A stretch of DNA of 21,771 bases from a virus, in IMG/VR virus record IMGVR_UViG_3300017917_000493, positions 1 through 21,771 of that record; one strand, given 5' to 3'. The notes beneath the pieces were generated by a model. That model was given only the letters and a program-made list of their open reading frames with translations, had not been told where the DNA came from and made no database searches. Positions 1,344 through 2,574 of this stretch are shown here, one piece after another (position 1 is the stretch's first letter; the number at the start of each line of letters is the position of its first letter). A program made the position numbers and the translations under genes.

Positions 1344-1622
1344 ATGGCTAAAACTCGTAGTAAACAGCCCAAAACACAAGATCTAGTACCCAACGAAGAT
1401 TTTTCAAAGTTATCAGAAGATCAAGTCACAGATCTCTTAGAGCATACTCTAGCCACACTCTGTGATCGTTTAGAAGCCAACGGTGTAGACCCAGATTATA
1501 TATCGGGCGCACTGTTTAACCATTTTACACAGCGACTCTGCGATGTCAACGATCGTGAACAGTACGAAATGATCCTAGAAATGGCTCTAGATTCTGAGTG
1601 GGATGAACAGACTATTCACTGA
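1344..1622 (+). CDS. Acidic helical protein of unknown function (92 residues)
   Basis: A strong AAGGAG (1333-1338) with 5 nt spacing fixes the ATG at 1344. The N terminus is basic and probably flexible (MAKTRSKQPKTQ). From about residue 20 onward the protein is acidic and predicted helical: a SEDQVTDLLEHTL segment, then DRLEANGVDPDYISGALFNHF, then a REQYEMILEMALDSEWDEQ tail. There is no membrane segment or metal site. The gene lies in the small-gene island between the membrane peptides and pqqA, preceded by an ATAAGTACT element and a leader hairpin. I do not recognise the family. The coding call is good because of the ribosome-binding site and the uninterrupted frame filling the gap. Confidence 0.75.
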   Translation: MAKTRSKQPKTQDLVPNEDFSKLSEDQVTDLLEHTLATLCDRLEANGVDPDYISGALFNHFTQRLCDVNDREQYEMILEMALDSEWDEQTIH

Positions 1623-1685
1623 CACCATTACTGATCTTTAATGGTTTTACGTATGTGATTTCTGGGGTTTTTGTCATATAATCAC

Positions 1686-1695
1686 TATAAGTACT
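1686..1695 (+). promoter_or_regulatory. ATAAGTACT element, copy 3, ahead of pqqA
   Basis: TATAAGTACT differs from the T4 late consensus TATAAATA at one base and lies 51 nt before the pqqA start. It sits inside a short inverted repeat, CACTA (1683-1687) with TAGTG (1695-1699). A TATAAT at 1677-1682 just upstream lacks a good -35, so a late-type promoter is the better reading. A start near 1699 would give a leader of about 48 nt ending in the pqqA ribosome-binding site. Confidence 0.45.
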
Positions 1696-1746
1696 AGTGT
1701 AACACACAGGGTACTTAATTAACATTTATTCTCAAGGAGAAACATT

Positions 1747-1818
1747 ATGTGGACAAAACCAGAAGCAGTTGAAATGCGTTACGGTTTCGAAGTAACCATG
1801 TACGTAATGAACAGATAA
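1747..1818 (+). CDS. pqqA: PqqA, precursor peptide of pyrroloquinoline quinone
   Basis: This 23-residue peptide begins MWTKPEAVEM and continues RYGFEVTMYVMNR. It matches the compact PqqA form: MW(T/K)KP start, an MR-x-GFEVT-x-Y core, and a basic last residue. Glu15 and Tyr19 (E-VTM-Y) are the two side chains that the radical-SAM enzyme PqqE joins before PqqF/G, PqqB and PqqC complete the cofactor; PqqD presents the peptide. A perfect AAGGAG (1734-1739) lies 7 nt before the ATG, and a 10-bp-stem terminator follows 18 nt after the stop, so it is built as an expressed gene. No pqqB, C, D or E is in the window, so maturation would rely on host enzymes. The flanking genes are phage genes, which makes this a likely auxiliary metabolic gene. 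The wording of the core resembles proteobacterial methylotroph PqqA as I recall it. Confidence 0.93.
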   Translation: MWTKPEAVEMRYGFEVTMYVMNR

Positions 1819-1836: not shown

Positions 1837-1869
1837 AATAAGGTGCGTAGATTATGCACCTTATTTTTT
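1837..1869 (+). terminator. Rho-independent terminator after pqqA
   Basis: AATAAGGTGC (1837-1846) pairs perfectly over 10 bp with GCACCTTATT (1856-1865) across a 9-nt loop, and the T run continues to 1869. It follows the pqqA stop by 18 nt and ends the small-gene island. Confidence 0.9.
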
Positions 1870-1926: not shown

Positions 1927-1932
1927 CCTGTG

Positions 1933-2574
1933 ATGCAGACCATGGCCTTATTTGTCAGCGATCCCTACTGCTCCGTCCAGTGCGCTAATGGAATAATACA
2001 CTGTCTGAGTCGGGATTATCAGATACGTCTATTTGGCCCTAGACCCGTGGAAGACTCATTTTGGCGTGATGTGGATCTAGTCTGTGTGCCCGGAGGCGAG
2101 GGCGATTCGGAAAGTTTCCATAGATTAATGATCAATCATAGACAGGATATACGCAGTCACGTTTGGGGAGGCGGGCAGTATCTAGGCATCTGCATGGGCG
2201 CATACTGGGCGGGATCACACTATTTGGATATCCTAGACTCTGTGGATGCTGTGCAGTATATAAGGCGGCCCTGCACAGATACTCGACGTCCACATGCTAA
2301 AAATATCTCAGTTCGTTGGCAGGATCGGGAGACAGAAATGTTCTTTTACGATGGCTGTGCTTTGGTAGGAGATACTGGTAAATTTACCACAGTGGCCAGT
2401 TATACTAACGGCGATGCCATGGCCATACAGCAGGGGCACATTGGAGTCATAGGCTGTCACCCCGAAGCGGAACCGTGGTGGTATGATAGTTATACGTGGA
2501 TGCAGGGTCTGTGGCAGGACCATGGGGCCCTGCTTCGTGACTTTGCCTTAGGCCTGCGCTTCGCCCCAGCGTAG
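1933..2574 (+). CDS. Class I glutamine-amidotransferase-like protein (BPL_N type)
   Basis: This 213-residue protein has a single alpha/beta domain. It carries a VPGG turn at residues 52-55, the nucleophile elbow GGGQYLGICMGAYWAG with Cys87, and CHPEAE with His176 and Glu178. Together these form the Cys-His-Glu triad typical of class I amidotransferase/DJ-1-like folds. The elbow wording (GGxYLGICxGAYxA) is closest to the biotin-protein-ligase N-terminal family. The BPL catalytic domain is absent, so it stands alone. The ATG at 1933 was chosen; GTG at 1930 or ATG at 1942 are alternatives. No Shine-Dalgarno is seen, and a TATAAATA ends 6 nt before the ATG, so the mRNA may be leaderless. The 3' end overlaps the convergent giant tail gene by 27 bp. 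The substrate is unknown, and a link to the neighbouring pqqA is only a matter of position. Confidence 0.75.
   Translation: MQTMALFVSDPYCSVQCANGIIHCLSRDYQIRLFGPRPVEDSFWRDVDLVCVPGGEGDSESFHRLMINHRQDIRSHVWGGGQYLGICMGAYWAGSHYLDILDSVDAVQYIRRPCTDTRRPHAKNISVRWQDRETEMFFYDGCALVGDTGKFTTVASYTNGDAMAIQQGHIGVIGCHPEAEPWWYDSYTWMQGLWQDHGALLRDFALGLRFAPA

Follow-up and report, generated by a model that had tools for sequence, protein, structure and literature searches.

Phages of Methylophilaceae carry pqqA, the gene for the short precursor peptide of PQQ, and the phage-borne pqqA cassette probably feeds host PQQ synthesis for methanol dehydrogenase during infection. The gene was found at positions 1747–1818 (+) of a 21.8-kb virus record, itself a fragment, which was analysed over its full length and is called the window here. 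It encodes a 23-residue peptide, MWTKPEAVEMRYGFEVTMYVMNR, which was confirmed as a genuine full-length PqqA.

The window peptide scores above the cut-offs of both PqqA models, Pfam PF08042 (35.9 bits against a cut-off of 21.1, E 7e-9, model positions 1–19 of 19 covered) and NCBIfam TIGR02107 PQQ_syn_pqqA (34.9 bits against 20, E 1e-8, positions 1–21 of 21). This bears out the initial annotation, which had called a 23-residue PqqA with Glu15 and Tyr19 and had proposed such a model search as the check. E15 and Y19 are the Glu and Tyr of the ExxxY motif, the two residues that become the PQQ skeleton. The gene has the start codon, ribosome-binding site, terminator and codon-level selection of a translated small open reading frame, and a chance reading frame at 1747–1818 was ruled out because the same peptide gene recurs in many phages. 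A sequence search of the PDB gave no PqqA relative among solved structures.

Selection was measured on loci found by an N-terminal pattern, with only the last 13 codons counted, so that the measured codons are free of ascertainment bias. Across 119 such loci pS was 0.72 and pN 0.063, giving an omega of about 0.03 on codons that had played no part in the search; E[VI]TxY is kept in 119/119 loci, with Glu15 and Tyr19 invariant. The C-terminal half of PqqA is under strong purifying selection in phages. A first omega of 0.08 was set aside as biased, since its loci had been found by peptide patterns.

A tblastn search of the peptide against 50,697 phage records gave 12 matches, ten of them in genuine phages: four Melnitz isolates, MEP401, MEP402, MEP301, Venkman, P19250A and the environmental podovirus ctXG6705. 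The last is a close relative of Venkman, and the other nine are named Methylophilales or Methylophilaceae phage records. Together they span at least five unrelated lineages (MEP401/402 of the Zobellviridae, MEP301, P19250A, Venkman/ctXG6705 and Melnitz), which differ in gene content. Each of the ten records has one pqqA copy and none annotates it (0/10); the methylophage records leave the site blank or place a hypothetical protein on its complementary strand. The two further matches, both entries of 'Acinetobacter phage MD-2021a', are bacterial pqq operon DNA and were rejected; in CAKLQF020000010.1 (L008), deposited under that name, the stretch contains ppk and pqqBCDE and is bacterial chromosome. 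A Pseudomonas-type PqqA query returned the same records again and none in Pseudomonas or Klebsiella phages, and no genuine pqqA was present among the 50,697 records in phages of PQQ-capable Pseudomonas, Klebsiella or Acinetobacter. Pelagiphages related to Venkman (TerL 48–50%) and to MEP301 (TerL 42%) gave no pqqA match. pqqA tracks the host, not the phage lineage. The methylotroph host proposed in the initial annotation is strongly supported by these genuine matches, which are nine methylophages and the Venkman-related ctXG6705, and we infer a host of this kind for the window's phage. All methylophages, in this context, means all that matched; the taxonomy also names the Methylophilales phages MEP431–434 and EXVC038S.

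In IMG/VR, where loci were sought with degenerate DNA patterns, a GFEVTMY-type pattern was found at no fewer than 120 loci and a GFEITMYIANR-type pattern at no fewer than 120, together on more than 240 contigs. Gene sharing divides the GFEVTMY-type matches listed into several groups without common genes, comprising a mosaic siphovirus/podovirus group, a 21-member group, a Melnitz-like group, two small groups and the window's own. Exactly one pqqA is present in 20/20 large virus records (47–365 kb). The GFEITMYIANR ending defines a second phage PqqA type, many of whose at least 120 IMG/VR stretches lie on very large contigs; examples within L442–L560 are L488 (364-kb record) and L490 (231-kb record). 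In bacteria the exact GFEITMYIANR pattern occurs in 1/369 genomes of the class and 3/60 of the order, directly upstream of a pqqB-like gene. A PqqA of alphaproteobacterial type (GMEVTSY) was seen on five contigs of the viral collection (L561–L565), one of them a 266-kb record.

The window codes for a phage helicase, a primase and giant structural genes. The best matches of its helicases and replication genes are in the jumbo myoviruses PA5oct, Atu_ph07 and Phosso (49–57% identity) rather than in T4-type phages (Straboviridae/Kyanoviridae). The description of the genome as a T4-like phage therefore holds only loosely: phage it is, close T4 kinship it does not have. A megablast search with the full 21.8 kb as query matched phage records over no more than a trivial 63 bases. 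The insertion site of pqqA is marked on one side by a small gene for a 92-residue protein of no family that is conserved in relatives (1344..1622, +), and on the other by the downstream neighbour, which codes for a BPL_N (PF09825) glutamine-amidotransferase-like protein (1930..2574, +). Another small open reading frame lies nearby at 835–966 (MWTAAEYLKQTPPRNF..., 43 residues, with a ribosome-binding site) and is conserved in L283 and L284 as MWTASEYLRQ....

Relatives of the window were found through the gene at 2–553 and the downstream neighbour. Two independent relatives, L282 and L286 (a 278-kb contig), carry pqqA at the identical site. In L283 and L284, whose neighbouring gene shows 96% identity, pqqA is absent from this place; what they miss is exactly the segment from the stop codon of the 92-residue gene to the shared terminator, that is, the upstream box, promoter and pqqA, and the flanking genes and the terminator are kept. 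Of 20 more relatives, whose records are for the most part partial, 18 lack pqqA, which indicates that the gene is dispensable in this lineage. The empty site and the patchy relatives together identify pqqA as a small cassette that the window's lineage has acquired or shed.

These contigs also bear on whether host DNA was joined to phage DNA by misassembly or contamination. Orphan pqqA of hosts looks alike and likewise lies apart from pqqBCDE, so that weakly classified short IMG/VR contigs could include host DNA. No such doubt attaches to cultured phages, whose complete genomes carry pqqA. For the window locus misassembly is refuted by the same gene order in L282 and L286 and by the clean empty site in L283 and L284, and as an explanation overall it is hardly credible. 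pqqA is thus a host-type metabolic gene inside a genuine phage genome, with phage genes in the window and syntenic relatives; neither outcome that the initial annotation had named as fatal to its proposal, failure against the PqqA model or a chimeric assembly, was encountered.

The gene is equipped with signals for expression. A ribosome-binding site, AAGGAG (1734..1739, +), is read in the sequence 7 nt ahead of the ATG, and a Shine–Dalgarno-like motif lies upstream of 147/154 phage pqqA genes. TATAAT at 1677..1682 (+) is the probable −10 of a predicted pqqA promoter without a consensus −35 hexamer. A generic sigma-70 scan did not pick this element, and none of its promoter calls exceeded chance expectation; the prediction rests on conservation of the arrangement among the relatives L282, L286, L013, L129 and L138. 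Downstream, AATAAGGTGCGTAGATTATGCACCTTATT and a T-run form an intrinsic terminator with a 13-pair hairpin (1837..1865, +; one found by the terminator scan against 0.2 expected). It is a property of the site and not of pqqA alone, since pqqA-less relatives keep it behind the upstream gene. Of the signals that had been assigned to pqqA as its own, the ribosome-binding site, the promoter-like element and the terminator itself stand, and only the ownership of the terminator does not. Behind the terminator, at 1886–1898, a GC-rich hairpin with a UUCG loop (GCGGCTTCGCCGC) occurs once, and once only, in the window; the close relatives L282–L288 likewise have a single copy each, whether pqqA is present or not.

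Directly past the −10, a 5′-UTR stem-loop (AGUACU...GGGUACUU; 1690..1715, +) is predicted. A leader hairpin recurs at the same place in other phage pqqA leaders with varying sequence (ACATAC/GTATGT, TATACAC/GTGTATA, TGTCC/GGACA). In the interval from 60 to 10 nt ahead of the ATG, stems of 7 or more pairs occur in 62/238 phage leaders against 2.6% of shuffles, and in 11/117 host pqqA leaders against 3.4% of shuffles. The simplest reading is that it may serve as a protective 5′ hairpin. An Rfam search returned nothing meaningful, with one weak match far under the gathering score, and a tRNA search found none.

A near-palindromic box is shared by phage and host pqqA genes, which is new in this analysis. 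In phage pqqA leaders it takes the form TTAATGATTTTC..TAT, mostly 70–120 nt ahead of the ATG, and it precedes about 60% of phage pqqA genes; it also stands upstream of host pqqA genes. The box can also be written TAATGATTTTCATTA. The box analysis was exploratory. A matrix was trained on 73 phage instances only, so the host comparison is the part that is independent of the training set. At a score of at least 10, the box was found in 146/238 phage pqqA upstreams against 5/1000 phage ORF upstreams, and in 39/117 host pqqA upstreams against 7/608 host ORF upstreams. P19250A, MEP301, Melnitz, MEP402 and the window score above this threshold; at the same threshold the box is absent in Venkman, ctXG6705 and MEP401. 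The strict form TMATGATTTTMMNTAG occurs 12 times across six host genomes, and 10/12 of these sites have, by coordinates, a pqqA at most about 140 nt downstream. They are found in both orientations, as expected of a near-palindrome (CTAATGATTTTCATTAG). The sharing of the box points to a putative regulator of host pqqA. The remaining two strict sites (L579 and L584, position 1501), in two Methylophilaceae species, lie between dinB/umuC-like and glycine-zipper genes and are a possible second target of that regulator. In the window the operator-like box TTTAATGGTTTTACGTATG (1637..1655, +) has its centre about 33 nt upstream of the −10, where an activator could contact RNA polymerase; it could equally well serve repression.

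PqqA was present in 100/100 Methylophilaceae genomes searched, in 1–12 copies each, in line with a literature report of 3–12 pqqA copies with a single pqqBCDE (PMC4109929). In a methanol-grown PQQ producer, two of five pqqA copies dominate expression (PMC9851590). The two commonest PqqA peptides are common to host and phage. Such amplification and overlap are as expected if substrate dose matters. Host PqqA (MWTTPAATEMRFGFEVTMYVMNK and variants; PF08042/TIGR02107) and the window peptide agree in the length of 23 residues, the MWTxP start, R11, Glu15/Tyr19 and the GFEVTMY core, and host pqqA is also often an orphan, away from pqqB–E, with a similar upstream box. They differ in that the window gene lies in a phage genome and that its combination of E6, V8, Y12 and R23 is absent among the 125 host loci compared.

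Such abundance in hosts invites the view that a mobile, amplified host pqqA mini-gene has repeatedly been picked up without benefit to the phage. Many host copies are orphans, the gene is patchily distributed within the window's lineage, and four pqqA DNA sequences are identical between host and viral loci. A neutral passenger is nevertheless quite unlikely, as synonymous divergence is saturated with almost no amino-acid change, a selection measure that disfavours it; the regulatory box, ribosome-binding site and leader hairpin are retained; and all named methylophages that matched have the gene and no phage of other PQQ hosts does. The peptide is too short for a tree to date or count the acquisitions.

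A search for pqqB, pqqC, pqqD and pqqE in the flanks of the viral copies tested found none near any of them, and the claim that no other pqq gene is present is true within the 21.8 kb of the window. Adjacency to pqqBCDE is not required, Methylophilaceae hosts having orphan copies too. Because PqqA resembles RiPP precursors and most genes of these phages are without annotation, the peptide might feed a phage-directed, non-PQQ pathway built on another radical-SAM enzyme. This is very improbable, given that no pqqD- or pqqE-like gene lies near the copies tested and that the sequence is that of host PqqA almost letter for letter.

Rather, the phage peptide would enter the host's own PQQ pathway, in which PqqD binds the PqqA leader, PqqE joins Glu and Tyr (Glu16/Tyr20 in M. 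extorquens PqqA), and PqqF/G, PqqB and PqqC complete PQQ (PMC10906245). Phages of Methylophilaceae, and those of other PQQ-using hosts, would carry pqqA as a portable cassette made of an operator-like box, a −10, a leader, a ribosome-binding site and 23–24 codons. Host RNA polymerase would transcribe it, probably aided by the host regulator that acts on host pqqA. Host PqqD would then bind the phage PqqA leader, host PqqE would join Glu15 to Tyr19, and host PqqF/G, PqqB and PqqC would finish PQQ, which would load methanol dehydrogenase and sustain energy and carbon flow during phage production. The phage would supply only the substrate that is consumed, leaving the catalytic enzymes to the host, and one extra substrate gene could be enough since PqqA is consumed stoichiometrically. 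In this scheme we infer transcription, processing, the rise in PQQ, the gain in fitness and the identity of the regulator; PQQ for methanol dehydrogenase would be the purpose of phage pqqA. As hosts already have several pqqA copies, the benefit of one more is not self-evident, and in Acetobacter overexpression of pqqAB gave a small rise in PQQ and that of pqqABCDE a large one (PMC7936290), so that extra substrate by itself may bring only a modest gain.

Supply of substrate alone, never of enzymes, could also suit a peptide that occupies host PqqD/PqqE as a decoy or signal, thereby slowing PQQ synthesis or diverting the radical-SAM enzyme; in principle, PqqD could be titrated by a surplus of substrate. 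We consider this unlikely. A decoy could lose both Glu15 and Tyr19, which are constant over the 119 loci in a peptide near-identical to the host's. One 72-kb virus record, moreover, carries pqqA about 6 kb from a PQQ-dependent dehydrogenase of the methanol/ethanol family (608 bits; 624 residues, L569 1084–2955, from the record of L045), which argues for raising PQQ. The dehydrogenase gene adjoins a repetitive 292-residue open reading frame resembling a curli-type repeat protein.

The initial annotation had cautioned that related phages might already be known to carry pqqA, and rightly so. PqqA was reported in 2020 in the T4-like Lake Baikal methylophage VP_266 (PMC7678222), where it was proposed as an auxiliary metabolic gene for methanol oxidation alongside a viral methanol dehydrogenase (PMC7678222). 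That report concerns one population and does not treat distribution, selection, regulation or cultured phages. The window, in contrast, comes from a different, jumbo-type phage and has no dehydrogenase within 21.8 kb. A 2026 listing for reservoir sediments includes viral pqqA, pqqD and pqqE. In the cultured methylophages MEP301, MEP401/402, P19250A, Venkman and Melnitz, the peptide is 77–87% identical to that of the window and single-copy, with no pqq enzymes; these phages belong to lineages unrelated to the window's and carry the gene, unannotated, at other genome positions. The publications on Melnitz, Venkman and MEP401 make no mention of pqqA, and nothing was found in the open-licence papers searched on its presence in all the matching cultured methylophages, its selection, the empty site or the box shared with hosts. 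Phage PqqA is thus known in kind, and its extent appears unreported.

We judge the chances to be even that no auxiliary gene of methylophages is more common or more host-specific than pqqA, which would have been gained independently by at least five lineages as a cassette of promoter and peptide that keeps the site of a putative host pqqA regulator, thereby placing a cofactor gene for the substrate alone under the control of the host. Standard gene callers miss pqqA even in complete genomes of cultured phages, and the gene offers a cheap metagenome marker for phages of methylotrophs. The findings open to testing the question of whether methanol oxidation is limited by PQQ substrate, both in infected cells and in hosts that have up to 12 pqqA copies. 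They suggest that many phages of marine and lake methanol consumers support PQQ supply through a 23-residue precursor alone.
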